Below, in pieces: positions 11,801-54,090 of a stretch of DNA of 64,000 nucleotides. The DNA is from Ectocarpus siliculosus (taxonomy: Eukaryota; Sar; Phaeophyceae; Ectocarpales; Ectocarpaceae). Both the position numbers and the translations under genes were made by a program. The DNA lies in NCBI GenBank assembly GCA_000310025.1, contig FN649751.1, positions 4,975,485-5,039,484 of the forward strand. The letters are read 5' to 3'. The number at the start of each line of letters is the position of its first letter. Positions within the stretch are counted from its first letter, which is position 1. The notes beneath the pieces were generated by a model. That model was not told where the DNA came from. It did no database searches and saw only the letters and a list, made by a program, of their open reading frames with translations.

Positions 11801-14800
11801 AGCTGGAAGGAAAATTGATCAACTTCAGCAGAGAGCCGGTCGTTCTTTGTTTTTCGCACACCGCCACAAGAACAATCTCAGTCTACCATGCTAGTCGCCA
11901 CTCGTAGAATGACTCTACCGAGCTGTACCGGTTCTGTGCTCGATTGCTATATAGGAACGCTCGCAGGTCTGTTGCAGCAGAACACAGTCATGTAATACAG
12001 GTTCGCCCGTTGTGATTTGTTCAGATCGCAGAGGGCGAGGATATTCCAGGGGATCGAAACAAAAATACGGGTATCTGATGCGATCTTATCAAGTATGGCA
12101 CAAGTCGGAGCTGTCGCGCAGGGGTGTGCCTGCAACTAGCGGAACCAAACAATTGAAAGTTACCGTTGGGGTGGTGGCGATCGCACAAGTGGCAGACATC
12201 GTACGCATGAAGAAACGCAAATCGAACACCTGTGGGCTCACTCGCACTTGTAACGGGACTCCAACCTCGACATTGGTCGTACATACCTCGGTCCAGGCGG
12301 ATGTCGACGAAACGCAAGAGATCGATAGCCGCGGCCCCGAGCCCTCCGGTATCGGCACTGCATTGTGGGCATCTACTGCCTTCCAGAAATTTGTCTCCAT
12401 CTCTAGTCGCCTGACAAGTGGGACGCAACATCTTTTACCGTCAATGTTGCAAGCGTAAAAGTAAGTTCGCATCTCGACCCGATTTTTGTCTCGAACACGT
12501 TCATGTCTTGGAAAATGATGGAACGCCGATAAACCCACCCGGAAGCGACGCCCTGCAGCAACATAATCACGCAAGTCCAATACGTGAAAACACTACCGCC
12601 TTTGCCGCACGCACGATTTTTCCCAGAATCGACTATTCCCAGAACGGGGTGTTTCGAGCGACCAAAAGTGTACCCTGCTTGGGCATTCATTGGTCCACAG
12701 ACTATACGCGTGTTGAGGGCTTACCTTGTTCACAAAGAGCATCCCGTCACCATGCTGAGGGCATTCCAGATAGCCCTTCCAGCCCAGTCCTGGAAAATCC
12801 ACCAGCATCAAGCTCACCGCAGACATGACGTATGACGTCGCCCCCCACGGGCCTGGGGTGCTGACATCGCCGAAAATTTGAGCAATAAGCTCGTTGTCGG
12901 TGGACGAGTATTCCACGACCACAGCGAATGTCCTGCGCTCATCTTGGACGCCGAGGCCGCCATGCACAAGCACCCCGTATCGCCAGAATGTCTGCACACC
13001 ACCAAGACCGCAGCACCGTGTCAACACCTTTTCGATCGCGCCAGGCGGTACACCGAGGAAAATCTTCCAACTGGCGCGGAATGCCGGGGTGAGCCCCGAG
13101 CAGAAGGTATCGATCACTTTGCCCACACTCTCGGGGCGGTGTGGCTTTAGCCTCAACAGAACTACCAGGCCCTCAGCAGGATCGTTTTCGAGTGGGAAAA
13201 TGAGACCCAAGGATGCAAGAGTCGGCAGCACATACTCGGACAGACCATTCGGCCAAATGGCATACGCCAACCTCGGTTCAAGCACGCCCTCCTTCTTGAG
13301 CCTGTCCCACGAAGCGATGTCTGCTGAATCGTCGAGTGTGATACGTGTGTCGCCCGTGTCCCCAAGATTCACACGGCCGTCAAACATCTCTTGGTCCTTG
13401 TGGTTGAGTAAGGGCTTGAGGATTCTCGCCAGCCAAACGACGTCCAGAAAGACAAACTTCTCGTGGGGAACGAGGGATCCGTCGAACTCCCTGCGTGCAC
13501 AACATTGTGAAGCCAAATGTTCGAGTTGGAAAATCCGCCCGGGAGGAATCCAAAGTCCAAAATCCAGGCGGAGTCTTCGAGGGAAGCATCGTTACAACGT
13601 CTTTTCCAACAAAACCAACAGAATACTCGAGACCTAGACATACTAGCTTGCTAGAGATCCTGTACACCGAACTGCAGCGATGCCGTGCCTAACATTGGCT
13701 CTAGGGCGTGGTGAAAAAGGAGGTCGCCATATTGAAACGTCGATTTGATCCATTCCATTTACCTGATCGAGAGAGCTCCTTCCAAAGCATTCTCGGCGTT
13801 TGTGACCGTGATCCCTCTTCTCCCAAGCCCATCAACTGTTTCCTGCCACTTGGCGCTGAGTTCCTCAACCGTGATCCCCTGATACACGGTTGTCTTTGCT
13901 GTTTCCGTTGCACCTCTGTCACTGTCAGGGGACTTGAGTATTACCATCTCCACCGGATCTCTGGGAAAGCAGCATTAACAAAATAACAAGGTTCAAAACG
14001 CATTCATACCTCCGGACTGTGCGTCTCGTCGGCGCTCGTGGCACGCCAGTGTTCGAGGACTGCATCCATACCTCTGCATCGTACGGGATACTAGTGCACG
14101 TAGGGCACACACCAGCGTATCGAGATTTCTAACGAAGGCCACTCGCAACAAAAACGTGTAGGCCGAAGAATCGAAAACGTGAATTTGACGGGGCATGGGT
14201 CCACGGAGCTACGTTTCGCCACCATGACCAGCGCCGAGGAGGACGTACTGAATAGAGGTCAGCGCGGGTGTTTAACGTAGTGGGGATTCAACCCCACCCA
14301 AAACGTTAGGTGAGCAAAGTGTCCACATCCCCTCCGGCTTCGACATACGAAGGTATCCATAGTTGGTAGAGCCCAAGTGTGACTACATGATAAAGCTCAC
14401 CGTCCATGCTCGAGAGAATCCAGGAAAGTGAGGGCGATATCCCAGCTGCGAGGAAGAACCATCTGGACGCCTCGGAGCCCACCTTTGTCAGGCTTGTTGA
14501 CGAGCCGGTAAATCAAACTGGGCGAGGGTTCACCGCCTCCCACATCTCGCCAGTCGCACGCCCAACAACTCTTCGACAGGAAGTTCTCACTGCTACTCTC
14601 GCCATGCTCACCAGCCCCTACTGGGAAGCAGCTCGTGAGGCAAACACCGGGCTCCAACCTAACGGACAGCATATTACGGCAGGCCCAGCTCGAAAGCCAC
14701 CTTCGACAGGCCTTCTCCATTCTTCTGCCAATTTCCCAAGCGTTCCCACCGGCCAGGTCGCACTTAGTGGCGACGAGAATGACTTCGGTGTCGGGAACGC

Positions 14801-17090
14801 GTCGAGATATCGATCGAAGCCAATTGCATACGCGCAATGCTTCCAGCTTGCGGCAGTCTTCTTCAACCTGGTCAATGTTGTCGCTTCCTAGCTGCTCTCC
14901 GAACTCCCCCGCGTTGCACACAAGCACGCACACCGACCGTGGTGTCAAGAACATCTGCAGCAGCCCCGTGTAGGCAACCTGTCCAGGGAGAGCAATGTGA
15001 GCTAAACATCAAGCAGCATCGACCACTTGGCCTCTCGTCCCTGCGGAGTGTACTTCGTCCCAATTTAAGCACAGTCCCAAATCGAACTATTCGAGACCCT
15101 CCGAGACCGGAGCCACCTCCGAATCGAAAGCCAGAATGCACTATATATATGCCACAAAACAACGCAGAGCGGGTGGGGAACCTTCCATTCGGCGCACTAA
15201 ATCAAATATTTACAGAGTATGGTCCATTTGCGAAATCTCAGTTCCTGCACACCCACGAAACAACATATTCTTGTCTTTTGCACACTCTGTATTAAAAGGG
15301 TTGAAGTACCGCGGGAAACATCCGTTAGCACCTGCACTATGTAGCTCACAGATTAGATTATACTTTTACAAACTTAGGAATTGTACCCCTAGCGCAACAA
15401 CATCTTCGTGCCAACTGTCCAGCGGCCACGCCAGATCAGGGTTGTCAACTTCGTGGCCTCAAATCTCCGACCCGACGACACGGAATCAAATGTAGCAGCT
15501 CGTCCTCTCCACCACGGTACCATCACGAAAATGATTGGAGGGTTCTCACTGGCTTCGGGGAACTCGCAAGGGTGCGCTTCGAAGGGCGCGAGTTTGGATG
15601 GAATTATTCAGGGCCGGCCATCAGCACCCTACCCAAACAACGTCGGCTGTTCTCAAGTTTCCCCCGACTGAGGCCTTACCCATTAACAAATTCGCCGAAC
15701 GTGCCGAGATGAGCACCAATTTCATTGCCGCCCCGTGACCCCCCAAGACGCTACACCCGTGCTAAACCGCACCCGGGTGATCCACGTCATAGGCCCGTCG
15801 TGAAACAAGTACTTTAGTGAAACATACAATACGTCAAGTACTTGAATATATTCAGCATCGCGTGAGACAACAGTCGCTGGGGGTACAAGCTGCAATTTTT
15901 TGAGAGCACGATTTCGCTCTGTCTGGCAGTTAGTGCTACACGCAGTCATCCCTCGCACGTAGGGCAGATATCGAATTCTCCTGGGCGACGGTGCCAAGCA
16001 TTACCTCTGCCAAGCACCCATCCTAAAACACTTCAGCATGAACAACCCGTCACCTGTCCAGCGCAGTCGTACACCCGTACAGATGAGCCTTCTAGCTCCA
16101 TGGACTCTACGTCTGCAAGCACTGTGCTATTTTCCTTCCACTCGCCCGTGAGAGTTGCTTTATTGGCCTTCATGCTTTGGCGCAAGCTGCCACACATAAA
16201 GAGAGTTTCCAACAAATACGCAGCACGAATGGTGGAGAGATAAGGAAGAGGGTCGCTTGGGCGCAACAAGGTGAATTCGCCGCGGTTGGTTTGCGACAGC
16301 CTATATTCGACAGCATGCTGATGCGCGGGAGGAAGAGTAGCGTTGGTCTTGTACCCCCACGACCATTCCTTTTCACGGTGACATTCAACCCTCTCATTTG
16401 GGCACAAATACGTGGAATATGTATACCGCGATGGTGCGAGTGTTCGCATCCCACCCAACCGTAGACCGATTGTCGTAACTCGATTACGCCACCACTAAGA
16501 GAGGTTCGGAACATGTCGTCAAGAACGCCCATAGATCTCTCGGCAGGTTTCGGCTTTGGAGTGATCGAGCTATGAGGGTCGGTAGAGGGGGTGCGATCAC
16601 TCGCGCACAGGTTCGGTATAAGACCAAAATGAATCACAGCCACCCAAGGAGGGTTCCAAGACATGAAACGGCCTGTGGCTGCCGCTCGTCGTGAATAAAC
16701 CAAACGATTCTGTGGTGAAAACAACCAATGAGCGGTTGTGGCTCATCGAACTGCGTGTGATACGATTGAAGCCAACCACTGTTTGGTGCAAGTGCAGTAT
16801 TGGGCAACAGCAGGGTCATCACATCACCGACCTCGTTTTCCCTGCTCCTTCCTGCCCGACAAGAACAACCTTGACGCCGCGGCGCTTGATCCTGCAGTGC
16901 TCAGCATACAGGTCTTCGAAATATCCTCTGATACTCTTCGGACCTTTGGCCACGATCGACTCTGGTGGCTCAGCCCATGGGTTCTCACTCAGGCTGAGAC
17001 TGGGACCGATACCCGTGTCGTTCAGTCCCTGCGCTTCAACACTATCGAAAATGTCAAGCAACCGGCATAGCTGGCTTGGCATTGGTCCAC
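8884..17090 (-). CDS. ROCO-family LRR-GTPase, Roc-COR and C-terminal part, 9 exons
   Basis: Exons in transcript order are 16832-17090, 16054-16186, 14401-14978, 13763-13960, 12725-13490, 12287-12410, 11376-11446, 9511-10110 and 8884-9276. They join in frame with no stop (about 1040 residues). Exon 1 carries the P-loop GQEGAGKT, and the intron cuts just after it. Exon 2 ends with the switch-II motif VYDCAGQ. Exon 3 has the base-specificity motif ATKCDLA. Exons 4-5 match the COR dimerisation domain (HEKFVFLDVVWLARILKPLL and onward). Exon 6 has a CPQC pair. Exon 8 has 11-residue amphipathic repeats (GGLNEVKVEM, EGFNEMKVEM), probably coiled coil. The protein should be a GTP-binding signalling scaffold; no kinase domain follows. 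All borders are GT-AG except the exon 8 donor, which reads GC. Fit to the brown-algal LRR-ROCO proteins is from recall of the family. Confidence 0.88.
10359..10732. repeat. cluster of the 12-bp palindrome CTTCCATGGAAG
   Basis: Five exact copies start at 10359, 10402, 10465, 10485 and 10721, and about nine further copies with one or two changes lie between them (for example ACTTTCATGGAAGT, ACTTCCGTGGAAGT, ACTTCCACGGAAGC). All sit in the ROCO intron between the 71-bp exon and the coiled-coil exon. Spacing is irregular (20-60 bp). Outer flanks also keep symmetry (A/G before, T/C after). Confidence 0.9.
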
Positions 17091-30339: not shown

Positions 30340-31307
30340 CCCCTCGGCAACGTCAAGCAGATGTGGCAAGGTATTAGTGGGATGGTAAAAAAGACCGCGC
30401 AAGGGGGGGATACAGGGGTAGCAACTTTGCGAGGTGTGAACGGTGGATTGTCAGCAGTGGGAAGGGAAAAAGGGAAGTTCAAGCAGGACACTACAAGAGA
30501 CTTGGAGTGCCTTCGGAGAATAAAGCTTTTGACCAAGTGTGGAAGAAGGAGGTGGACGAATGGGCCCAGGAAGAAGAAGAAACATCGAAGGCAGACGTCG
30601 GGAACGTAGAGCTAGAGAAGGAGCTCACTGAGGACGAGGTTGAGGAGTGTGTGAACGTGTGAACAAGTTGCAGTGCCACAAAGCAGCAGGGGCGGATGGG
30701 ATAGTCAACGAGTTCATGATGTTTGGTGGGAAGGGGATGATACAGCTGATGGTACTGCTGTACAACTGGGTGTGGAAAAACGAGTATGCGCCAAGTACAT
30801 GGAGGGAAGGAGTGGTTGTGAATGTGTTCAAGAAAGGAAACAAGATTGACCCAGGAAACTACACGGGGATCACACTGTTGAACACAGTAGGAAAAGTGTT
30901 CTGTTAGCTGCTGAACGATAGGATAGTGGGAGTATTGGAGAAGGAACGTAGCATTAGTGAGGGCCAGGCAGGTTTCCGAAAGAAGAGGTGGTGCGTAGAC
31001 TACGCATTCACGGTAGGGAGAATCATCCAAGGTAGAAAGAGGGTGGGGAAGCCGACGTACTGCTTCTTCCTGGACGTGAAAAAGGCCTACGATACAGTGT
31101 GGAGAAATGGGCTGTGGAAACAATTGTCCAAGTACGGGATCAAGGGGAAAATGTGGAGAGTGCTGAAGAAGATGACAGAGTGTACGAAAAACGCGGTCAT
31201 GCTAGACGGAGAACTGTCAAAATTCTTCGACATTGAACAGGGGGTCCCACAAGGTTGCACGCTGTCCCCAACATTGTTCCAGGTGTTCATCAACGATCTG
31301 TTGGAAG
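30340..31307 (+). mobile_element. dead LINE fragment: ORF2 linker and reverse transcriptase, truncated before the catalytic YADD box
   Basis: Non-LTR reverse transcriptase blocks appear in order: KAAGADGIVNEFM, WREGVVVNVFKKG, GNYTGITLLNTVGKVF, EGQAGFRKKRWCVDYAF, then motif A FFLDVKKAYDTVW and motif B GVPQGCTLSPTLF. Frame changes near 30488 and 30656 and an in-frame TAG at 30905-30907 break the ORF. At about 31307 the LINE stops abruptly and LRR-cassette intron sequence begins, so motif C and everything downstream are absent. The C-terminal segment at the right edge of the window appears to belong to the same LINE family. Confidence 0.85.
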
Positions 31308-31460
31308 TCGTATGCAGTTGGCGGGACAGAATCTACGGAGATCGATATACTAAACCAAACGTACCCACTCACGCTGAAACGGTCGCGAAAGAGCGCTATC
31401 AAATCACGTGTTCACCCACCGCTTAGCTGGATGCCGGAAATATTCAGTGCTGAAAGGTGA
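31308..31460 (-). pseudogene. truncated LRR cassette with exon remnant
   Basis: From ATCTACGGAGATCGATATAC onward the sequence matches the cassette copy at 34337-34500. The minus-strand exon remnant (about 31420-31458) keeps the end of an LRR (HLSAL, then IQLSG) with its GTGGGT donor, but the first half is missing and the middle has a deletion. It marks the left edge of the LRR array. Confidence 0.7.
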
Positions 31461-31591
31461 GTCCCGGAGACCGAATGTGAAATACTATTTTGACTTTTCA
31501 AGAACGACACGCACGCCGCATGAATCATCGGCATCGGCGGGATTCATCCAGAATCTGAAAAAAAAAAAAAATCCTGCGGAAAGTATCTCAC

Positions 31592-31663
31592 CGCTGAGGT
31601 GGTTGCCCTGAAGGCAGAGGTGCTGTAGCGCTGAGAGGTTTCCTAGCTCGGGCGGGATGGGGC
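31592..31663 (-). CDS. LRR exon, 72 bp, minus
   Basis: One complete 24-residue plant-type LRR (GPIPPELGNLSAL, then LQHLCLQGNHL). It has a TTGCAG acceptor, a GTGAGA donor and phase 1-1. It is the last intact minus-strand LRR before the LINE and the long gap to Roc. Confidence 0.85.
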
Positions 31664-31740
31664 CTGCAAGCAGAAGAGCATTACGAATTAGCGGGAAATA
31701 AAAAAAGGAATAACCCGGCTTCCTTTTTTCTAGATCATCG

Positions 31741-31794
31741 ATCTCCGTAGATCTTGTCCCGCCCACTAGTGGGTGGGACAAGATCTACGGAGAT
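31741..31794. repeat. 54-bp near-perfect palindrome at a cassette junction
   Basis: ATCTCCGTAGATCTTGTCCC and its inverse meet at CCCACTAGTGGG, with only one mismatched pair. Each half is the ATCTACGGAGAT intron motif that recurs through the array, so this is a head-to-head join of two cassettes. It separates the minus exon at 31592 from the plus exon at 31850. Confidence 0.9.
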
Positions 31795-31849
31795 TTGCAG
31801 TATTCCTGATTTTTTATTTCGAACTTCTCTCCATTCGAAATTCATGCAG

Positions 31850-31921
31850 GTGAAATCCCAGCGTTGCTAGGACAGCTCAGGAACCTGCAGGTGCTCATGC
31901 TCTTTAGTAACAAGCTCACAG
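31850..31921 (+). CDS. LRR exon, 72 bp, plus
   Basis: Complete LRR (GEIPALLGQLRNL, then LQVLMLFSNKL) with ATGCAG acceptor and GTGAGT donor, phase 1-1. It lies opposite in strand to the cap and Roc exons, so it cannot be spliced into the minus-strand gene as it stands. Confidence 0.8.
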
Positions 31922-32086
31922 GTGAGTATCTATGGCGGATTTGAGTGCGTCGTGGTGAAGGATTTTTTTCGCGGCCTGATTCCACCGATGAATCCCGCGT
32001 ACGCGTTGGCAGGACCGTTTTTCTAGACACCGGGTGATTAATTTTGTTTTCTCCCGCCAACTTCTTATTTGTTTTTCGTCTGGCAG

Positions 32087-32158
32087 GCAACATCCCGTCA
32101 GAGCTTGGAGATCTCCGACAGCTGCAGGTGCTGTTACTTAGCGACAACCACCTCACAG
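32087..32158 (+). CDS. LRR exon, 72 bp, plus
   Basis: Complete LRR (GNIPSELGDLRQL, then LQVLLLSDNHL), TGGCAG acceptor, GTACCT donor. It belongs to the GNIP subfamily together with 35099 (plus) and 35276 (minus); flanking introns also match. Confidence 0.8.
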
Positions 32159-32293
32159 GTACCTATTTTATATTGATGGTCGGCTTAATTATTTTCTAGC
32201 ATTGGTCCATGGATGAATCTCGCCGATGCATACACGGGATTCATCTTGAAACTCCATGGGAATTTTTTTCAACACATCTAAAGAGTGTCTCAC

Positions 32294-32365
32294 CGCTTAG
32301 CTGGTTCCCGTAGAGGTGCAGATCTTGAAGCGCTGCGAGCTTTCCCAGCGCCGGCGGAATGGGAC
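32294..32365 (-). CDS. LRR exon, 72 bp, minus
   Basis: Complete LRR (GPIPPALGKLAAL, then LQDLHLYGNQL), TTACAG acceptor, GTGAGA donor. It is one of four closely related copies (34202, 34565, 35497) that differ mainly at exposed positions. Confidence 0.85.
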
Positions 32366-32526
32366 CTGTAAGTGGAAGAAGGAAAACGGAGTGATGGTTG
32401 CGGGTCAAAACAAAAATAATGCCCCGGCTTCTAGACCAGTGAGTGGACGCCAACTAATACGCGGGGTTCATGCATGTCCACAACTCGAAGGAAAATAAAA
32501 CGCGTTTCGAATTGTGTTCAACTCAC

Positions 32527-32598
32527 CATCTAACTTGTTGCGGCTGAGGTAGAGGTCTTGCAGGGCGCCAAGATTTCCTAGCTGCGGCGGGATATGGC
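32527..32598 (-). CDS. LRR exon, 72 bp, minus
   Basis: Complete LRR (GHIPPQLGNLGAL, then LQDLYLSRNKL), TTACAG acceptor, GTGAGT donor. It encodes the same protein as the inverted copy at 33546-33617. Confidence 0.85.
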
Positions 32599-32676
32599 CT
32601 GTAAACGAGGGAGTCAACACAAGGTAGTTTGGCAGGGTACAGAAAAGTTATCCCTCCAGTTCTGAAATTTCCTACC

Positions 32677-32776
32677 NNNNNNNNNNNNNNNNNNNNNNNN
32701 NNNNNNNNNNNNNNNNNNNNNNNNNNNNNNNNNNNNNNNNNNNNNNNNNNNNNNNNNNNNNNNNNNNNNNNNNNNN
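32677..32776. other. assembly gap of exactly 100 N
   Basis: The gap lies inside the left arm of the palindrome. The intact right arm covers the same interval in about 52 bp (33416-33467), so 100 N is probably a placeholder length. Confidence 0.95.
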
Positions 32777-32834
32777 CGTACCCACTCACGCCGAATCGGT
32801 CGCGAAAGAGCTATCAAGTCACGTGTTCACCCAC

Positions 32835-32906
32835 CACTTAGCTGGTTGCCGGAAAGGGCGAGCTCCTTCAGTGCTGAAAGGTGCCCCAGCTCCAATGGGA
32901 TGGGCC
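32835..32906 (-). CDS. LRR exon, 72 bp, minus
   Basis: Complete LRR (GPIPLELGHLSAL, then LKELALSGNQL) with GGAG acceptor and GTGGGT donor. The inverted copy at 33286 differs by one residue (Ala to Val). Confidence 0.8.
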
Positions 32907-33024
32907 CTCCAAGAGGACGGGTGGAACGGAGTACCTGAGCGGGACAAAAAATGTAACCCCCCGCTTTCTAGAATAACGGTCCCGCCTACTGCATACACGG
33001 GATTCATCCCGCACGACTTCTCAC

Positions 33025-33096
33025 CGGTCAGCTGGTTATTCGAAAGGTAGAGAGACGTCAGTGCTGCGAGCTCTCCCAGCTCCGGGGGAATGGGCC
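33025..33096 (-). CDS. LRR exon, 72 bp, minus
   Basis: Complete LRR (GPIPPELGELAAL, then LTSLYLSNNQL), TCCAG acceptor, GTGAGA donor. The same protein is encoded by the inverted copy at 34076-34147. Confidence 0.85.
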
Positions 33097-33285
33097 CTGG
33101 AGCGAAGTGCAAGCAGGAATTCAGCGGGAATTGAGCGGGGGAAAAAATAAAAATTACCCGGCTTCTAGAAAAGCAGTTACTCACACTAAATGGACGCCAA
33201 CGCAGTAGGCGGGACCGATGTTCTAGAAAGCGGGGGTTACATTTTTGTCCCGCTCAGGTACTCCGTTCCACCCGTCCTCTTGGAG

Positions 33286-33357
33286 GGCCCATCCCATTGG
33301 AGCTGGGGCACCTTTCAGCACTGAAGGAGCTCGTCCTTTCCGGCAACCAGCTAAGTG
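33286..33357 (+). CDS. LRR exon, 72 bp, plus
   Basis: Inverted near-copy of 32835-32906 (variable part LKELVLSGNQL), with intact GGAG acceptor and GTGGGT donor. Confidence 0.8.
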
Positions 33358-33545
33358 GTGGGTGAACACGTGACTTGATAGCTCTTTCGCGACCGATTCG
33401 GCGTGAGTGGGTACCTTTGGTTTAGTATATCGATCTCCGTAGATCCCGTCCCGCTAACTAGTAGGCGGGTACGAAATTTCAGAACTCGCGGGATAACTTT
33501 TCTGTACCCTGCCAAACTACCCTGCGTTGACTCCCTCGTCTACAG

Positions 33546-33617
33546 GCCATATCCCGCCGCAGCTAGGAAATCTTGGCGCCCTGCAAGACCTCTACCTCAG
33601 CCGCAACAAGTTAGATG
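33546..33617 (+). CDS. LRR exon, 72 bp, plus
   Basis: Inverted copy of 32527-32598 with the same protein (LQDLYLSRNKL), CTACAG acceptor and GTGAGT donor. Confidence 0.8.
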
Positions 33618-33805
33618 GTGAGTTGAACACAATTCGAAATGCGTTATATTTTCCTTCAAGTTGTGAACGTGCATGAATCCCGCGTATTAGTTGGCGGGAC
33701 AGGATCTACGGAGACCAGTTGTCTTGAAAACAGAGAGGCGGATAGAGTAAAAAAAGGTTTGTTGGCGTCCACGGCGCAGGCGATATCCATGTATGCATGT
33801 CTCAC

Positions 33806-33877
33806 CTGCGAGTTGGTTGTTTTGGAGCCAAAGTATCTCCAGCTTACCAAGCCCTCCCAGCTCCGGCGGGATCGCAC
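33806..33877 (-). CDS. LRR exon, 72 bp, minus
   Basis: Complete LRR (GAIPPELGGLGKL, then LEILWLQNNQL), TTGCAG acceptor, GTGAGA donor. I found no close inverted partner in the window. Confidence 0.85.
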
Positions 33878-34075
33878 CTGCAAACAAGTAATATACGTTT
33901 GCGGGGGAAGTAGAATTTAATCACCCGGCTCTCTCTTTTCGAGATATTCGATCTCCGTAGATCGTGGTGCGTTGGCGGCCATTTAGTGTGAGTAACTGCT
34001 TTTCTAGAAGCCGGGTAATTTTTATTTTTTTCCCCGCTCAATTCCCGCTGAATTCCTGCTTGCACTTCGCTCCAG

Positions 34076-34147
34076 GGCCCATTCCCCCGGAGCTGGGAGA
34101 GCTCGCAGCACTGACGTCTCTCTACCTTTCGAATAACCAGCTGACCG
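34076..34147 (+). CDS. LRR exon, 72 bp, plus
   Basis: Inverted copy of 33025-33096 (LTSLYLSNNQL), TCCAG acceptor, GTGAGA donor. The upstream intron is also copied back to about 33970. Confidence 0.8.
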
Positions 34148-34201
34148 GTGAGAAGTCGTGCGGGATGAACCCCGTGTATTACATACACGGGATTCTTACA
34201 G

Positions 34202-34273
34202 GCCCCATTCCGCCGGCGCTGGGAAAGCTCGCAGCGCTTCAAAGTCTGTACCTCCAAGGGAACCAGCTGAGCG
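34202..34273 (+). CDS. LRR exon, 72 bp, plus, GC donor
   Basis: Complete LRR (GPIPPALGKLAAL, then LQSLYLQGNQL), TTACAG acceptor. The donor reads GCGAGA where related exons have GTGAGA, a minor but usable class. It follows 34147 by only 54 bp, far shorter than other introns here, so a cassette join lies in between. Confidence 0.75.
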
Positions 34274-34441
34274 GCGAGACACTGTTTAGATGTATTGAAA
34301 AAATAATTCCATTAATTTTCAGGATGAATCCCGTGTATGCGTTGGCGGGACGGGATCTACGGAGATCGATATACTAAACCAAACGTACCCACTCACGCCG
34401 AATCGGTCGCGAAAGAGCTATCAAGTCACGTGTTCACCCAC

Positions 34442-34512
34442 CACTTAGCGGGTTGCCGGAAAGGGCGAGCTCCTTCAGTGCTGAAAGGTGCCCCAGCTCC
34501 GATGGGATGGGG
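34442..34512 (-). pseudogene. chimeric LRR exon, 71 bp, frame-breaking
   Basis: The exon matches 32835-32906 (LKELALSGNPL) up to its first bases, but its acceptor side is replaced at about 34510 by the downstream intron of a different cassette (AAATTCATGGGAATTTTTTT). The nearest AG leaves 71 bp instead of 72, so inclusion would shift the frame. Confidence 0.75.
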
Positions 34513-34564
34513 CTTCTTGAAAATTCATGGGAATTTTTTTCAACACATCTAAACAGTGTCTCAC

Positions 34565-34636
34565 CGCTTAGCTGGTTTCCGTAGAGGGACAGATGTTGAA
34601 GCGCTGCGAGCTTTCCCAGCGCCGGCGGAATGGGAC
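34565..34636 (-). CDS. LRR exon, 72 bp, minus
   Basis: Complete LRR (GPIPPALGKLAAL, then LQHLSLYGNQL), TTACAG acceptor, GTGAGA donor; a close relative of 32294, 35497 and 34202. Confidence 0.85.
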
Positions 34637-34870
34637 CTGTAAGTGGAAGAAGAAAAACGGAGAGATGGTTGCGGGTCAAAACAAAAATAATGCCCCGGCT
34701 TCTAGACCAGTGAGTGGACGCCAACTAGACGCCAACTAGTGGGTGGGACAAGATCTCCGGAGATTAGTTGTCTTGAAAATAGAGCAGCCGGTAATTTGTT
34801 TTTTTGTTTCCCGCTTGTCTAGAAGCTTGTCAAATTCCTGATTTCATGATTCGCATGATCCTTTGTGCAG

Positions 34871-34942
34871 GGCCCATACCCAAGGAGCTGGGAGCCCTCA
34901 CGGAACTGAATGTGCTTTGGCTTTACAGCAACCAGCTTACAG
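34871..34942 (+). CDS. LRR exon, 72 bp, plus
   Basis: Complete LRR (GPIPKELGALTEL, then LNVLWLYSNQL), GTGCAG acceptor, GTGAGA donor. The GALTEL framework resembles the first LRR after the cap in this family (from recall). No inverted partner is seen. Confidence 0.8.
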
Positions 34943-35098
34943 GTGAGAGGCGAGGGCCACATACATTTTTTTCAACAGCCAAACCTACCGCTTTTAGAAT
35001 GAGTCCCGCCGTTGCGTTGGCAGGACCGTTTTTCTAGACGCCGGGGGATTAATCTTGTTTTTATCCCGCCAAATTCTTATTTTCCCTTCGTCTGGCAG

Positions 35099-35170
35099 GC
35101 AACATCCCGCCAGAGCTAGGAGATCTCCGACGGCTGCAGTGGCTGCAGCTCAGCGAGAACCACCTCACAG
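35099..35170 (+). CDS. LRR exon, 72 bp, plus
   Basis: Complete LRR (GNIPPELGDLRRL, then LQWLQLSENHL), TGGCAG acceptor, GTACCT donor. It is the left half of the 35.2-kb palindrome. Confidence 0.8.
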
Positions 35171-35275
35171 GTACCTATTTTACTTTGATGGTCGGTTTTG
35201 TTTTTTTTCTGGCATTCATCCATGGACCACTGCTAGAAAATTTTGAAGCCGACCATCAAAATAAAATAGGTGTAT

Positions 35276-35347
35276 CTGTGAGGTGGTTGTCGCGGAGCCA
35301 CAGCCTCTGCATCTGTCGGAGATCTCCTAGTTCTGGCGGAATGTTGC
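35276..35347 (-). pseudogene. LRR exon, 72 bp, minus, donor site lost
   Basis: Complete LRR (GNIPPELGDLRQM, then MQRLWLRDNHL) with TGGCAG acceptor. The donor position reads ATACAC where both relatives have GTACCT, so splicing out of this exon is probably impaired and the exon may be skipped. The reading frame is otherwise intact. Confidence 0.75.
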
Positions 35348-35496
35348 CTGCCAGACGGAGGGAAAACAAAAAGTTGGCGGGAGAAAACAAAATTAATCCC
35401 CCGGCGTCTAGAAAAACGGTCCTGCCAACGCCATACACGGGATTCATCCTGAAAATTCATGGGCATTTTTCTTAACTCATTCAAACAGTGTCTCAC

Positions 35497-35568
35497 CGCT
35501 TAGCTGGTTCCCGTTGAGGTATAGATCTTGAAGCGCTGCGAGCTTTCCCAGCGCCGGCGGAATGGGGC
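35497..35568 (-). CDS. LRR exon, 72 bp, minus, first after the cap
   Basis: Complete LRR (GPIPPALGKLAAL, then LQDLYLNGNQL), TTACAG acceptor, GTGAGA donor. It is the LRR exon nearest the cap on the same strand, with a TIR element between them. Confidence 0.85.
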
Positions 35569-36098
35569 CTGTAAGTGGAAGAAGGAAAACGGAGTGATGG
35601 TTGCGGGTCAAAACAAAAACAACGCCCCGGCTTCTAGACCAGTGAGTGGATGCTCTCTTTTTTTCTGGTACGATTTTTTGGGTGATCACCCCTCAACTCT
35701 TGCCCAAGACAGCCAAAACGGGAGAAGCTATTCCTCAACGGCAACGCCTTGGATTGGGGCGCGGTTTTTTGTGTTGTGGGCGCACAAACCAAAGCTAAAT
35801 ATCGCCAGAAACAGATTATTGGGTTCAAGGGGGGAAAAATGGAGCATCGGCGGAAAAGTACTCTAAATATCATACGTTTGCGGCAACCAAATTGCGGAGG
35901 AAAAAAACTGATCCGGTGTTTCCTTGAGTGTGTTCTACAGACTGGTGTCATGCAATATGAAGAGTCAACTCTCCACCAGGAGCCAGGAATACGTACTCCC
36001 ACTTTCTTGTCTTTATTGAAGTCAATTCCAAATCGGCCACCGAGGTTGTGCAAAAAAAAACATTTTTTTTGGTGGTCTGCGCGCTGTTTTTTTTTTGT

Positions 36099-37353
36099 CG
36101 TTAAGGCTTAGTCTTACGGTGTGATTATTTCCGGATTGGATTTTGGGGGGGGGTCCTTTTCTGAGCCAAAACAATAATTTGGGCGTCTTACGGGTAGGAA
36201 AATGGCATTTTTCAACAGCCCAAAATCCAACAGGGCAGTTTCCAACAACGATTCCGGCCGGCCTGTTAGAAAATTGGCCCATTTTCCAACAGCGACCCTG
36301 TTGGAAAATCGTTGTTAGAAATGGGGGGGTGTACCCCCTGGTCACACCCCGATCGTGCCAGAACGAGGAATTACACCTTCTGCTGGCCAAACAGAGGCCA
36401 GTATCATGAGGTCATGCACAAACCCTCTGCAGGTATCTAAAATTCAGGGCGTTCTGCGTCGTGTTGGCCGCACACGAGCCGATAACGTCAACCCTGCCAC
36501 ATTGCTCCGCTGACGTTCCTGCCTTTGGGCCGAAAAGAGCCGTTTTTGTGCCTGCTGCATGTGTGACCAGTCAAAACACACGCCAGAGAGAGCCTTTATG
36601 CCGTCGACATCCACAAACTGCAGCCAGTGGCGTGTGATCATATGCGTACCCTCTGCTCGCGTCCCAGAAACAGATCATAATGTCCAGTTTTGATTGCACA
36701 CGGGCTGTAAACGTGAACCGAAGTGCGTTGCGGTGTTGACTTTTTGACTTTTTTCTTGTTCCGCCGCGTGTTTGCTCCGTGTGTCACCCGCTACCAGTCC
36801 ACAACACATGCCAGAGATAGGCTTTCGGCCGACGACATCCACAAACTACTGCCAATGGAGTGTGATCACACACAATCGCTCTGCCCGCGTCCCAGAAGCA
36901 GAGCGTATTGTCCAGTTTTGATTGCACACGGCCTGTAAACGTGAACCGAAGTGTGTTGCGATGTTGACTTTTTTGAACGTTGCCTTTTTTTTTCTGGTTG
37001 CTCCGAGCGTGATCAATCCACAACGCATGCCCGAGAGAGGCCTTTGGCCGACGACATCCACAAACTGCAGTCACTGGCGTGCGATTATATACATGCCCTC
37101 TGGAGGCGACACCAAAACAGGGCATTTGGTGTCTTGTTGGTCGCACAAGAGCCAAAACCGTGAACTGAAGCATGTTGTGACCCGCAACGACTTGAATCGG
37201 CCCTTTTTTTCCCCCGTGAGAAAAAAATCTGTCTCGAGGAACCGTAAGACGTTCGTATGGATCCAGATCATTTTTCCCTTGCAGACCACCCCCCCCCCAC
37301 CGAGAGAAAAAAAAATCTCCGAAATAATCACGACGTAAGACTCGGCCTAACGG
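36099..37353. mobile_element. DNA element with ~36-bp TIRs inserted in the LRR array
   Basis: The left end (36099-36135, TTAGTCTTACGGTGTGATTA) and right end (37317-37353, inverse of GAGTCTTACGTCGTGATTAT) match at about 85 percent. LRR-type intron sequence resumes just outside at about 37380. The interior has tandem repeats and no transposase, so it is non-autonomous. Another hairpin pair built on TTTCCAACAACGATT lies near 36240-36320. Confidence 0.65.
36420..37170. repeat. tandem array, 3-4 diverged copies of ~220-230 bp
   Basis: The GACATCCACAAACT block starts at about 36606, 36834 and 37051. TGTCCAGTTTTGATTGCACA occurs twice and the GTGAACCGAAGTG block also recurs. The array is internal to the 36.1-37.35 kb TIR element. 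Confidence 0.8.
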
Positions 37354-37516
37354 CGTAATCTCGAGGTCTAACTGTCTGGATGTGTTGAAAAAAAATCGCA
37401 TGAATTTTCAAGATGAATCCCGTGTGGGTGAGTAGGTGGCTTCTAAGCCGGGTTAATTATTGAAGTTTTCAAACCAACTCCTTTAATTAACCCCGCTGTG
37501 TACATTCCCCTCGAAG

Positions 37517-37612
37517 GATCTATTCCCGCGGCGCTGGGAGCTCTCAGCAAGCTGGAGTGTCTGTTAATTTTCAATCTTTAGCGTCTGTCAATCTTTGACA
37601 ACAAGTTAACCG
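37517..37612 (+). pseudogene. LRR exon with 24-bp internal duplication and stop, plus
   Basis: The exon is 96 bp (72 + 24). It starts as a normal LRR (GSIPAALGALSKL) and ends normally (IFDNKLTG), but the middle is partly duplicated (CTGTTAATTTTCAATCTTT next to CTGTCAATCTTT), which puts a TAG in frame. Splice sites (GAAG acceptor, GTGAGG donor) look intact. Confidence 0.75.
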
Positions 37613-37803: not shown

Positions 37804-37978
37804 CTTGGAGGTTGTTCGCCGCCAGGCCAAGCTTGACCACTCGGCCCTGGCCGTTAACTTGGACTCCATCCCATGTCGCTAGCTCGGCATCTGTGCCCCA
37901 GTTGCCTCTTCGGCTCCATCCATACCCGCAGGTCAAACGAAACAGGGCAATCAATGCTTCACGGTCCGTGGAAGCCAT
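37804..37978 (-). CDS. N-terminal cap exon of the LRR-ROCO protein
   Basis: An ATG at 37978 opens MASTDREALIALFR, a tryptophan-rich segment (GYGWSRRGNW), then ATWDGVQVNGQGRVVKLGL and NNLQ, with the GTTAGT donor after 37804. The W-x-GV...GRVVKL-L...NNL-G pattern is the classical N-terminal LRR cap of plant-type LRR proteins and matches the start of brown-algal LRR-ROCO proteins (from recall). The 175-bp exon ends in phase 1, as needed by the LRR exons. No signal peptide is visible, so the product is probably intracellular. The promoter should lie above 37979. Confidence 0.88.
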
Positions 37979-47639: not shown

Positions 47640-50600
47640 AGCTGACATCTCAAAACCTGGCCATCAGATTTCAAAATCTGGCTTTCGCAAACTATGTTGA
47701 GTTTTCATAAGTCTGTGAAACTGGTCTCTTGGAACTAAACCAGTCTTCTGGTGACATGACTTGACACCCTAAACTCGACCTTGACATAAAGTTGAAGATA
47801 TACTCTGCAATGTACCGCATGGATAGGAAGTGACACGGTCAGCAGAGAGCTGGCATATCAAACCAGGCCACTGATCTCAAATTCTGGCCTTCGCAAACTA
47901 AATTAAATTTTCCGAAATCTGTTAACATGGTCTCTCACTACATCAACCATTGTTCTGATGACATGACCAAACACACTAGCCCCTACCTTGAGATGTACTT
48001 GTAAAAGTACGCTGTACTGTACCACATGGATAAGAAAGTACTGTTAAGTGGACTGGGTCGATGTGCGACAACACGGGCAGATGTGCGACAGAACGAGAAC
48101 TTGCCAGAACCGATGGCCGACAACACGGCCGAGCAGCCAAGACGCGCGACAGAATGAGAACTTGTCAAAACCGATGGCCGACAAGACGGCCGAGGCGCGA
48201 AGACGCGCAACAGAACAAAACTTGCCGGAGCCGATGGCCGACATCACGGTCGAGCAGGTCAGCGACAGCACGCGCGGCGGCGTTTGGCTATCCATGCGGT
48301 ACGCTACGATGTATGTCTACGGGGATATCTCAAAGTAAGTGGTTACGGTATCTGATCACATTATCAGAAGACTGGTTTTGGTATCAAGAAACCAGGGATC
48401 ACAGATGTTGGAAGGCTCTAAGAAAGTTAGAATCTGAAATCTGATGGCCTGGTTTTCAGACGCCCGCTATCAACTTCATCTATCTTTCACATGAATGTGG
48501 GACAAACCGGCCGAGCCGATGGCCGACCACAACACGGCCGATGCGCGACTGAACGAGAACTTGCTCGAACCGACGGCCGGCAACAACACGGCCGAGCCGC
48601 GAAGGCGCGCCACAGAACGAGAATTCGCTCGAACCGATGGCTGGCAGCTACACGACCGAGCCGCGAACACGCGAGCCACAGAACGACAAATTGCTCGAAC
48701 CGACGGCCGGCAACAACACGGCCAAGCCGCGAAGACGAGCGACTGAACAACAAATTTCTCGAACCGATGGCCAGCAACAACACGACCGAGTCGGGAAGGC
48801 GAGCCACAGAACGAGAACTCGCTCGAACGGATAGCCGGCAACAACACGGCCGAGCCACGAAGGCGAGCGACAGAACGACAAATTGCTCGAACCGACGACC
48901 GGCAACAACACGGCCGAGCCGCAAAGGCGCGCGATAGAACGAGAACTCGCTCGAACCGACGGCCGCCAACTACACGACCGAGCCGCGAAGACGCGAGCCA
49001 CAGAACGACACATTGCTCGAACCGACGGTCAGCAACAACACGGCCGAGCCGTGAAGGCGCGCAACAGAACGACAACTTGCTCGAACCAATGGCCGGCAAC
49101 TACACGGCCGAGCCGCGAAGGCGCGAGCGACAGAACGACAACTCGCTTGAACCGACGGCCGCCAACTACACGACCGAGCCGCGAAGACGCGAGTCACAGA
49201 CCGACAAATTGCTCGAACCGACGGCCGGCGACTACACGACCGAGCCGCGAAGACGCGCGACAGAACGACACATTGCTCGAACGGATAGCCGGCAACAACA
49301 CGGCCGAGCCGTGAAGGCGCGCAACAAAACGACAATTTGCTCGAACCAATGGCCGGCAACAACACGGCCGAGCCGCGAAGGCGCGCGACAGAGCGACAAT
49401 TTGCTCGAACCGACGGCCGGCAACAACACGACCGAGCCGCGAAAGCACGAGCCACAGAACGACAAATTGCTCGAACCGACGGCCGGCGACTACACGGCCG
49501 AGCCGTGAAGGCGCGCGACAGAGCGAAAACTTACTCGAACCGACGGCCGGCAACAACACGGCCGAGCCGCAAAGACGAGCGCCAGAACGAGAACTCGCTG
49601 GAACCGATGGCCGGCAACAACACGGCCGAGCCGCGAAGACGCACGACAGACCGAGAGTTTGCCGGAACCGACGGCTGACAACAACACGACCGAGCCGTGA
49701 AGACGCGGGACAGAATGATAACTTGCTCGAACCAACGGTGATGCACAACACGGCCGAGCCGCGAAGACACGCCACAGAACGACAACTTGCTCCAACCGAT
49801 GGCGGACAACAAGGCGGAGCCGCTAAGACGCGGGACAGAACAACAACTTGCTCGAACCAACGGCCAACCACAACACGGCCGAGCCGCGAAGACACGCCAC
49901 AGAAGGACGACTTGCTCCAACCGATGGAGGACAACAAGGCGGAGCCGCGAAGACGCGCGACAAACGACAACTTGCCGGAAGCGATGGCCGGCAACAACAC
50001 GGCCGAGCCGCGAAGACGCGCGAGAAACCAAAACTTGCTCCAACCGATAGCCTACCACAACACAGCGGAGCCGCGAAGACGCGCGACTGAACAACACGTT
50101 ACCGGAACAGATGGCGGACAACCCGGCGGAGCCGCGAAGACGCGAGACAAAACGAGAACTTGCTCGCACCGATAGCCTACCACAACACAGCGGAGCCGCG
50201 AAGACGCGCGACTGGACGACAACTTGCCGGAACCAATGGCTGGCAACAACACAGCGGCGCCGCGAAGACGGGCGACAGAATGACAACTTGCCGGAACCAC
50301 GGCTGACAACAACACGGCCGAGCCGCGAAGACGCGGGACAGAACGACAACTTGTTCGAACCAACGGCCAACCAAAACATGGTTGAGCCGCGAAGACGCGC
50401 GACAAACGAAAACTTGCTCCAACCGATGGCCGGCAACAACACGGCCGAGCAGATGTCCGACACAACGACAACTGGTTCGAACCGATGGCGGGCAACAAGA
50501 CAGCCGAGCCGAGAAGACGCACGACAGACCCAGAGTTTGCCGGAACCGATGGTCGACAAAACGGGTGGCCGCGACAGACCGAGAATTTGCCAGAATCGAT

Positions 50601-53600
50601 GGCCGACACCACGGCCGAGCCGATCAGCGACAGCACCAGCGGCGACGTTTGTCTATCCATGCGGTACTATTTACAACGTATGTCTACGGGTATATCTCAA
50701 GGTCAAGGTTAGGGTGTCTGGTCACATCATCAGAAGACTGGTTTCGGTATCAAGAGACAAATTGAACATTGTTTGTGAAAGCCAGAACCTGAAATCTGAT
50801 GGCCTGGTTTCGAGACGCCATATCTACTTTACCTATCGACGCACGACAGAACAACAACTTGCCGGACCGATGGCCGGCAACAGCACGGCCGAGCTGCGAA
50901 GACGCGCGACAGAACGAGGATGTGCCGCAACGGATGGCCAACAACACAGCCGAGCCGCGAAGACGCGCGACAGAACGAGAACTGGCCGGAACCGATGGCC
51001 GACATCACGGCCGAGCCGATCAACGACAGCACGAGCGGCGGCTTTCCCCTACCCATGCGGTACGCGACAATGTATGTCCACGGGTATATCTCAAGGTAGA
51101 GGGTACGGTGTCTGGTCACATCATCAGAAGACTGGTTTTAGTATCAAGAGACCAGTTTCACAGATGTTGTAGAGTTGAATGTTGTTTGTGAAAGCCAGAG
51201 TCCGAAACCAGACGGCCTGGTTTTGAGATGCCAGTTATCTCCTTGATCTCTCTTGCAAATGTATGTGGGACAAATGGCCGAGCCGATGGCCAACAACACG
51301 GCCGATGCGCGAAAGACGCGCGACAGAACGAGAACTTGCTCCAACCGATGGCCGGCAACAGCACGGCCGAGCCGCGAAGACGCGCTGCAGAACGAGAACT
51401 TGCTCGAACTGATGGCCGGCAACAACACGGCCGAGCCGCGAACACGCGCCACAGAACGAGAACTTGCTCGAACCGATGGCCGGCAACGACGCGGCCCTGC
51501 CGGAAAGACACGTCACAGAACGACAACTTGCCGGAACTGATGGCCGACACCACGGCCGAGCCGATCAACGACAGCACGAGCGGCGGCGTTTCTCTACCCA
51601 TGCGGTACGCTACAATGTATGTCTACGGGTATATCTCATGGTAGAGGGTACGGTGTCTGGTAACATCATCAAAAGACTGGTTTTAGTATCAAGATACCAG
51701 TTTCACGGATGTTGGAAAGTTGAATGTTGTTTGTGAAAGCCAGAGTCCGAAACCAGACGGCCTGGTTTTGAGATGCCAGCTATCTCCTTGATCTATCTTG
51801 CAAATGTATGCGGGGCAAATGGCCGAGCCGATGGCCAACAACACGGCCGATGCGCGAGAAGACGCGCGACAGAACGAGAACTTGCTCGAACCGATGGCCG
51901 GCAACAGCACGGCCGAGCCGCGAAGACGTACGACAGAAAGAGGACGTGCCGGCCCTGATGCCCGGTAACAACTGAAAGGCAACAACAGAACGAGACCTTG
52001 CTCGAACCGATGGCCGGCAACAGCACGACCGAGCCGCGAAGAAGCGCCACAGAACGACAACTAGCTCGAACCGACGGCCGGCAACGACACGGCCGAGCCA
52101 CGGAGACGCTCGACAGAAAGAGACCTTGCCGGGACCGAACGGCAACAACACGGCCGAGCCGCGAAGACGCGCAACAGAAAGAGGACGTGCCGGAACCGAT
52201 GGCCTGCAACAACAGAACGAGAACTTGCTCGAACCGATGGCCGGCAACAGCACGGCCGAGCCGCAAAGTAGCGCCACAGAACGACAACTTGCTCCAACTG
52301 ATGGCCGGCGACAACAGAACGAGACCTTGCTCGAACCGATGGCCGGCAACAACACGGCCGAGCTGCGAAGACGCGCGACAGAACGATAACTTACCGCAAC
52401 GGATGGCCGACAACACAGCCGAGCCGCGAAGAAGCGCGACAGAACGCGAACTTGCTCGAACCGTCGGCCGAGATCACGGTCGAGCCGCGAAGAAACGCCA
52501 CAGAACGAGGACGTGCTCGAACTGATGGCCGGCAACAACAGAACGAGAACTTGCTCGAACCGATGGCCGGAAATGACACGGCTGAGCCACGAAGACGCGC
52601 GACAGAAAGAGACATTGCCGGGACCGAACGGCGACAACACGGCTGAGCCACGAAGAAGCGCCACAGAAAAAGGACGTGCCGGACCTGATGGCCGGCAACA
52701 ACAGAACGTGAAATTGCTCGAACCAATGGCCGGCAACAACAGAACGAGACCTTGCTCGAACCGATGGCTGGAAACGACACGGCTGAGCCAAGAAGACGCG
52801 CGACAGAAAGAGGCCTTGCCAGGACCGAACGGCAACAACACGGCCGAGCCGCGAAGACGCGCGACAGAAAGAGGACGTGCCGGACCTGATGGCCGGCAAC
52901 AACAGAACGAGGCCTTGCTCGAACCGATGGCCGGCAACAGCACGGCCGAGCCGCGAACTCGCGCCACAGATCGAAACCTTGCCGCAACGGATGATCGACA
53001 ACACGGCTGAGCCGCGAAGACGCGCGATAGAACGAGAAGTTGCTGGAACTGATGGCCGGCAACAGCACGGCCGAGCCGCGAACACGCGCCACAGATCGAA
53101 ACCTTGCCGCAACGGATGATCGACAACACGGCTGAGCCGCGAAGACGCGCGACAGAACGAGAACTTGCTGGAACCGATGGCCGGCAACACGGCCGAGCCG
53201 TGAAGACGCGCCACAGAACGAGGACGTGCCGGAACCGATGGCCGGCAACACGCGCCACAGAACGAGACCTTGCCGGAACCGATGGCGGGCAGCGACACGG
53301 CCAGGCCGCGAAGACGCGCCAAACAGCGAGAACTTGTTCAAACCGATGGCTGGCAACAAAACGACCGAGCCGCGAAGACGAGCGACAGAACGAGGACGTG
53401 CCGGAACTGACGGCCGGCAACACGCGCCACAGAACGAGAACTTGCTCGAACCGATGGCCGGCAACCACACGGCCAAGCCGCGAAGATGCGCGACAGAAAG
53501 AGAACTTGCTCGAACCGATGACCGGCAACAACACGCCCGATGCGCGAGAAGACGCGCGACAGAGAGAACGTGCTGGAACTGATGACCGGCAACACGCGCC

Positions 53601-54090
53601 ACAGACCGAAAACTTGCTCGAACCGATAGCCGTCAACAGCACGGCCGAGCCGCGAAGAAAGCGCCACAGAAAAAGGACGTGCCGGAATCGATGGCCAACA
53701 ACAACAGAACGAGACATTGCTCGAACCAATGACCGGCAACGACACGACCGAGCCACGAAGACGCGCGACAGAAAGAGGACGTGCCGGACCTGATGGCCGA
53801 CACCACGGCCCAGCCGATGTCCGACAGCGCGAGAAGATGCCCGAACCGACAGCCGCCAACATGGCCAAGCCGATGAGCAACAGCACGAGCGGCGGCTTTT
53901 GCCTATCCATGCGGCACATGATAGAGTTTTTCTATCGCTACGTCTCAAGATAGTGGTTAGCGTATTTGGGCACATCACCAGAAGAATGGTTTCGTACAAA
54001 AGATACCAGTTTCGCAGAATTCGGAAAATTCAATATTGCTTGCGCCGGCCAGAATTGGAAATCTGACGGCCTGGTTGTGAGACGCCACCT
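47640..54090. mobile_element. foldback-like composite element: inverted ~185-bp modules enclosing 64-bp tandem arrays
   Basis: A ~185-bp module occurs seven times. Two copies are inverted at the left (47640-47826 and 47847-48030). Five are direct (48290-48470, 50655-50820, 51051-51236, 51596-51780 and 53905-54090). Shared marks include CCATGCGGTAC, AAGACTGGTTT, AGACCAGTTTCACAG and GGCCTGGTTTTGAGAYGCC. The outermost copies face each other, so the whole 6.4 kb has inverted ends, like foldback elements with tandem-repeat arms. Arrays of a 64-bp repeat fill the spaces. No transposase is present. Confidence 0.8.
48500..50640. repeat. 64-bp tandem repeat array (minisatellite)
   Basis: The unit contains CTTGCTCGAACCGATGGCCG, then GCAACAACACGGCCGAGCCG, then CGAAGACGCGCGACAGAACG. 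Similar arrays lie at about 48055-48285, 50835-51045, 51260-51590 and 51800-53900, some 75-80 units in all, with shortened units (loss of the GCCGAGCCGCGAAGACGC part) common in the last block. As 64 is not a multiple of 3 and the unit lacks stops in most frames, it produces long spurious ORFs on both strands. Confidence 0.9.

Follow-up and report, generated by a model that had tools for sequence, protein, structure and literature searches.

Shuffling of exons among the receptor genes of brown algae, perhaps in somatic cells, was reportedly proposed by Zambounis et al. in 2012. The locus described here lies in a 64,000-nucleotide stretch of the Ectocarpus siliculosus genome (assembly GCA_000310025.1, contig FN649751.1, positions 4,975,485 to 5,039,484 of the forward strand; hereafter the window, to which coordinates without a contig name refer) and contains an array of leucine-rich-repeat (LRR) exons of an LRR-ROCO gene. 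The brown-algal LRR-ROCO genes described in the accessible part of Teng et al. (2024; PMC11378527) have 72-bp exons that each encode a single LRR in one phase, the order cap-LRR-Roc, and variable residues 14, 16, 18 and 19, and the gene in the window belongs to the same family. That part of their text offers alternative splicing as a simpler source of diversity, has no rearranged loci or recombinase to cite, and does not describe opposite-strand exons, cassette borders, a junction site or breakpoints. The gene family and exon shuffling are already known; the cassette border, the junction site and the both-strand layout were not found described for any alga in a comparison outside which the work of Zambounis et al. 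(2012) lies.

The LRR exons of these arrays are probably carried, at a probability of roughly three in four, by mobile-element-like single-exon cassettes that have inverted-repeat ends, adjoin one another through a common palindromic site and were moved singly in either orientation. In the proposed model, short inverted repeats (GCRTNGGCGGGA...) would mark both ends of a cassette, and single cassettes would be copied or moved, whether on one chromosome or from one to another, inserting at, or recombining through, one another's junctions in either direction. A sense insertion would add one LRR to the receptor with the frame unchanged, and an antisense insertion would be hidden within an intron and spliced out. 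Antisense exons would then be silent and decaying, and could return to the protein when the cassette is flipped or copied back. A transposase or site-specific recombinase acting at the junction site may drive this movement; antisense copies may be reused, and the system may still be active.

The array occupies 31.4-37.6 kb of the window and holds 19 LRR exons (Table 1), ten on the minus strand, which is the sense strand of the gene, and nine antisense exons on the plus strand. A weight-matrix scan of both strands of the window recovers 18 ungapped 72-bp LRR exons with scores of 57-95, compared with less than -14 in shuffled windows. Sixteen exons are exactly 72 bp long with AG|GT or AG|GC borders, three are broken (Table 1), and all LRR exons of the window are laid out as 2 nt, 23 codons and 1 nt. 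This is phase 1-1, which is named 'phase 2' by Teng et al. (2024; PMC11378527). Single-LRR exons of 72 bp in one phase, the trait of the brown-algal LRR-ROCO shuffling group, are thus found here, and cap, LRRs and Roc follow in that order on one strand. The initial annotation, made from the sequence alone, had listed ten minus-strand and nine plus-strand exons plus a remnant, sixteen of them intact and in phase 1-1, and had seen no cap exon on the plus strand. The scan and the sequence confirm these counts, and a cap search of the window gives a single cap, on the minus strand, and none on the plus strand; the Roc pieces are also on the minus strand. Elsewhere in the genome there are 67 cap-like matches, and at other loci with nearby cap and Roc coordinates the two lie on the same strand. 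The COR domain has no match in the minus-strand open reading frames (ORFs) of the window that were scanned, and a COR-A profile search of the genome finds one place, on another contig.

The mixed-strand arrangement is not peculiar to this locus but is genome-wide and inter-chromosomal. From the 189-Mb genome, sixteen 10-kb stretches adjoining cap exons were compared together with the window, giving 226 LRR exons, 141 in the orientation of the cap and 85 opposite to it; LRR exons occur on both strands in the 16 other stretches as well. Strand order along the arrays looks random (107 switches, with 96.7 +- 6.4 expected), and the four combinations of neighbour orientation occur at the frequencies expected under independence. 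The clusters of tetratricopeptide-repeat (TPR) exons in this assembly keep to one strand (1 of 96 exons on the minority strand in the Pfam hit table), so mixed strands characterise the LRR arrays and not the assembly as a whole. One TPR exon array (L061, G000:C27:3074000-3077600) consists of direct tandem repeats of ~743 bp that are 92-97% alike on a single strand, with five copies of GCGGGA spaced by about 710-770 bp.

The unit that is repeated among the LRR arrays is a cassette of about 234 bp, composed of a half-intron, the 72-bp exon with both splice sites and another half-intron. All-against-all comparison of the arrays gives 650 exon-containing matches of at least 85% identity (divided about equally between plus, 351, and minus, 299), 643 of which hold exactly one exon, as do all 42 matches of at least 97% identity. 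Identical cassettes (100%) of 243 and 279 bp are found on different contigs between unrelated neighbours. The antisense cassette at 33463 of the window likewise has a perfect sense match on another contig (Table 1) and is only 95% identical to its own twin 1 kb away. Haplotype duplicates are ruled out as the source of identical cassettes, because the neighbours of cassettes matching at 97% identity or more are collinear in just 3-7%. Local inversion of blocks was also rejected: one two-cassette inverted duplication occurs in the window (32448-32950 with 33242-33696), but multi-cassette matches are rare across the genome (7/650). Inverted exon twins in the window are 94-99% complementary and 0.3-1 kb apart. 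A second conserved intron motif, TTCTAGAAGCCGGG, lies in the upstream half-introns some 65-75 nt ahead of the exon (34002-34015, for instance) and could be a splicing motif or a subterminal binding motif; the first motif search on cassette heads converged on it, and a narrower region yielded the border motif. Within the window, TTCTAGA is restricted to the array, which has 18 copies of it.

Adjacent cassettes are joined at the palindromic site TCCCGCCNAYGCRTNGGCGGGA, in which about 22 bp are conserved (redundancy-weighted), with conservation at background level beyond. Read inward, the end motifs are MYGCGTnGGCG (upstream) and AYGCRTnSGCGGGAY (downstream), a likeness that is partly by design since both searches were seeded with similar motifs, whereas the breakpoints are independent of the seeding. 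The motifs exceed the threshold in 132 and 152 of 224 cassettes, compared with 4 and 2 in shuffled sequence, and when motifs are trained with one array left out at a time, 102 of 186 intervals qualify, against none in shuffled sequence and 9.9 +- 2.8 on permutation. The core dinucleotide is mostly GC, with TA in some sites; assigning it to one of the two partners proved impossible, as it is near-universal across sites. Homology between related cassettes stops at the centre of the site (median +1 to +2 nt at both ends), and for pairs of at least 97% identity, 73-78% of homology ends fall within 6 nt of the core, compared with 22-24% when core positions are shuffled. At 99 of the 131 junctions with both half-sites, adjacent cassettes have one core in common with no base gained or lost, and such single cores are found in all four junction types, including head-tail, head-head and tail-tail; a minority of junctions are longer by one or a few bases. 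When the border sequence was searched in the genome with up to 3 mismatches, all eleven places found were in LRR arrays. Cassettes thus have terminal inverted repeats (TIRs) at fixed borders, as do TIR DNA transposons and miniature inverted-repeat transposable elements (MITEs).

Table 1. Coordinates of the LRR-ROCO locus in the window; sense and antisense are relative to the cap exon.
Position	Strand	Feature	Basis
14676-14984	-	Roc domain, second part	tblastn with C483 Roc ORF (L006), E about 6e-7; weak Pfam Roc, E = 0.0067
16825-16995	-	Roc domain, first part	tblastn with C483 Roc ORF (L006), from another ROCO locus, E about 1e-6
31420-31460	-	Sense LRR exon remnant	sequence
31592-31663	-	Intact sense LRR exon	weight-matrix scan
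31741-31794	.	Head-to-head junction, near-perfect 54-bp palindrome, core TA	
31850-31921	+	Intact antisense LRR exon	weight-matrix scan
32003-32004	.	Junction core	
32087-32158	+	Intact antisense LRR exon	weight-matrix scan
32228-32229	.	Junction core, tail-to-tail	
32294-32365	-	Intact sense LRR exon	weight-matrix scan
32455-32456	.	Junction core	
32527-32598	-	Intact sense LRR exon	weight-matrix scan
32677-32776	.	Assembly gap, 100 N, within array	
32835-32906	-	Intact sense LRR exon	weight-matrix scan
32990-32991	.	Junction core	
33025-33096	-	Intact sense LRR exon	weight-matrix scan
33202-33203	.	Junction core, head-to-head	
33286-33357	+	Intact antisense LRR exon; inverted twin of 32835-32906	
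33463-33690	+	Complete antisense cassette enclosing exon 33546-33617	100% over 228 bp to sense cassette, contig C4:2034807-2035034
33546-33617	+	Intact antisense LRR exon	weight-matrix scan
33688-33689	.	Junction core, tail-to-tail, core TA	
33806-33877	-	Intact sense LRR exon	weight-matrix scan
34076-34147	+	Intact antisense LRR exon; inverted twin of 33025-33096, 98.6% over 212 bp	
34202-34273	+	Intact antisense LRR exon, GC donor	weight-matrix scan
34339-34340	.	Junction core, tail-to-tail	
34442-34513	-	Broken sense LRR exon, no acceptor (AA); truncated copy of cassette at 33286	
34565-34636	-	Intact sense LRR exon	weight-matrix scan
34737-34738	.	Junction core, head-to-head	
34871-34942	+	Intact antisense LRR exon	weight-matrix scan
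35014-35015	.	Junction core	
35099-35170	+	Intact antisense LRR exon	weight-matrix scan
35276-35347	-	Broken sense LRR exon, AT replacing GT as donor	weight-matrix scan
35430-35431	.	Junction core	
35497-35568	-	Intact sense LRR exon	weight-matrix scan
37371-37425	-	PIPPALGK-type cassette tail fragment without exon	DNA match G000:C26:5012855-5012909
37517-37612	+	Broken antisense LRR exon, 96 nt owing to 24-nt insert with in-frame stop	
37804-37978	-	Cap exon (MASTDREALIALFRL...LAANNLQ|G), first coding exon of LRR-ROCO gene; sets sense strand	sequence

A reverse-transcriptase ORF at 30908-31426 (+; Pfam RVT_1, E = 2e-19) belongs to an element resembling a long interspersed nuclear element, which adjoins the 3' end of the array and lies between the array and the Roc exons. 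The array is itself interrupted at 35650-37400, where 1.7 kb of non-LRR sequence with internal repeats separates the broken exon at 37517 from the first intact sense exon. A long 61-64-bp minisatellite at 48085-53803, unrelated to the LRR array, overlaps a 749-aa open frame on the minus strand (51780-54029).

Antisense exons decay faster than sense exons. They are broken in 25 of 85 cases, compared with 7 of 141 sense exons (p = 6e-7; 71% and 95% intact), which corresponds to an odds ratio of about eight, antisense to sense, for having a broken splice site or frame. In arrays with many junction sites 59 of 75 antisense exons are intact, compared with 1 of 10 in arrays with few or none. One array (L055, G000:C8:1166300-1176299) looks like a fossil of the same cassette process, with 7 of its 8 antisense exons broken and all junction sites gone. 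Selection was examined in nearest pairs whose introns are at least 85% alike, and since these pairs are not fully independent the ratios of non-synonymous to synonymous changes (pN/pS) are estimates and not formal tests. Changes are concentrated at residues 14, 16, 18 and 19, which are reported as positively selected by Teng et al. (2024; PMC11378527). At these residues pN/pS is 2.7 in sense-antisense pairs and 3.6 in sense-sense pairs, with framework values of 0.36 and 0.49, respectively; in antisense-antisense pairs (n=10), which show few changes, the framework value is a relaxed 1.86. Relative to introns, the framework value of the mixed pairs is 0.41 and not the ~0.8 predicted for an unconstrained antisense branch, and therefore antisense exons appear to have been expressed during most of their separate history. 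Because sense-antisense pairs retain the signature of expressed LRRs, flips would seem to be recent and recurrent on the evolutionary scale.

These results modify the interpretation given in the initial annotation, in which the plus-strand exons were a silent reservoir, arranged as inverted cassettes, that inversion could bring into the expressed orientation. A reservoir usable after a flip agrees with the data on the evolutionary time scale, in that exons are relaxed while inverted and have a recent sense history, but somatic or programmed switching is not supported. Cassettes do exist, although their unit is a single exon and not a block of inverted cassettes, and the data fit movement or transposition of cassettes at the palindromic junction site better than they fit local inversion by itself. 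The alternative that the plus-strand exons are mere debris fits only old arrays without junction sites.

It is rather unlikely that exons were shuffled in the ordinary way, through unequal or ectopic homologous recombination, which needs no dedicated site or enzyme and would leave inverted copies as neutral by-products, tolerated because a 72-bp phase 1-1 exon can be lost in an intron. Multi-exon tandem duplication does occur, in the LRR array L052 and in the one TPR array examined, which has grown by duplication of several exons at a time, and the relaxed constraint on antisense exons suits neutral by-products. However, this process predicts scattered breakpoints and mostly same-strand duplications of several exons, whereas single exons in random orientation are observed, broken at one conserved palindromic core in otherwise unconserved intron; unequal crossing over suits the TPR array but not the LRR arrays. 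Somewhat less improbable is the extrusion of cruciforms at the palindromic junctions, followed by central breakage and end-joining, so that general repair, without a dedicated recombinase, shuffles cassettes that are pieces lying between fragile palindromes. Homology does break at the centre of the palindrome and some junctions are slightly longer, and palindrome breakage with repair is a real rival for the enzyme step. Nevertheless, exactly one shared core at constant spacing in three-quarters of the junctions (99/131) is beyond the usual precision of end-joining, and breakage alone leaves copies on other chromosomes unexplained.

Programmed diversification, in which inversion and exchange of cassettes under developmental or infection control draw on the antisense exons as a reservoir for immune receptors, would also account for the conserved site, the random orientation, the hypervariable residues and antisense exons that were once selected as expressed LRRs. 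It is doubtful, however, as germline mobility with selection yields the same pattern equally, and no somatic variation, regulator or recombinase is seen apart from a single weak, partial genomic match to serine resolvase. Still less probable is a use for the antisense exons in place, either in a convergent plus-strand gene or through RNA pairing with sense exons in the pre-mRNA, which would steer alternative splicing. The close complementarity of the inverted twins would favour pairing, and alternative splicing of these exons is reported by Teng et al. (2024; PMC11378527); against such use stand the missing plus-strand cap in the window and the eightfold odds of breakage. The least credible explanation is that antisense exons are an artefact of assembling repetitive arrays. 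The array in the window contains a 100-N gap and several others contain N runs, but gap-free arrays are alike (10 of 21 exons antisense in L044), the TPR arrays assembled alongside them keep to one strand, and misassembled sense exons would not be broken more often, as antisense exons are.

In favour of mobile cassettes, one clear solitary copy (C26:5699430-5699643) lies outside any array amid unrelated sequence, with its tail end exactly at the core. Its head end is truncated and the border lost; TACTAC-like sequence flanking it at either side is at most a hint, and a target-site duplication is not demonstrable. Two further solitary candidates run into N gaps; a head end that begins at the core in unrelated sequence is seen before one such gap. 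Against mobile elements, and in contrast to ordinary MITEs, cassettes are almost confined to arrays. No enzyme was identified, the sole family searched being serine resolvase (PF00239); a serine recombinase had been considered because of the two-base core, and one weak partial match is present in the genome. Ectopic gene conversion after an older move could maintain identity between chromosomes and make moves look younger, and all data derive from a single individual and a single assembly, which has some gaps. When cassettes or exons were searched in the DNA, the other matches lay mainly in or near known arrays, so that moving cassettes would either target existing sites or persist mainly at those sites.

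The discrete units, the junction site, the breakpoints, the random orientation, the cross-chromosome identity and the selection pattern are read directly from the sequence, and now that cassettes can be delimited and the site that joins them read, receptor-exon shuffling becomes testable against one defined 22-bp palindrome. Receptor evolution could proceed here with either direction of insertion harmless, because a sense cassette would leave the frame intact and an antisense one would be removed by splicing. The receptors are candidate immune receptors, and cassette mobility would explain their reshuffling. By analogy, one may tentatively imagine an integron-like eukaryotic system, in which a dedicated enzyme, recognising the palindromic ends, inserts, excises, flips and trades single-exon cassettes among receptor genes in the germline and perhaps somatically, renewing the recognition repertoire; such a system is possible, though on balance improbable.

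Among the known systems, the variable lymphocyte receptor (VLR) loci of lamprey and hagfish (PMC3308329) also have many LRR modules near the receptor gene, forward or reverse relative to it, and both orientations are likewise found near the gene here. VLR cassettes, however, are unspliced donors that are copied into an incomplete gene in a manner like gene conversion, whereas in the alga every module forms an entire exon with its own splice sites and a defined border site, and the algal gene already has many sense exons. The LRR genes of Tetrahymena with 90-bp exons (PMC6564038) resemble the algal arrays in the equal length, single phase and large-scale multiplication of their exons; ectopic recombination and retrotransposition are invoked for them, and the words 'inverted' and 'opposite' are absent from that text. 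Exons are mobilised by elements with TIRs in the soybean CACTA element Tgm-Express (PMC1947982) and in Pack-MULEs, but these are large elements with captured fragments of the host, whereas the cargo of an algal cassette is one exon and the elements themselves build the receptor array. Introners (PMC9860276) are likewise short non-autonomous elements, many with TIRs, that are tolerated in genes through splicing. They become introns, the element itself being spliced out, whereas the algal cassettes carry a coding exon with its two splice sites between two half-introns; of the systems compared, introners follow the most similar logic, with the roles of exon and intron swapped.

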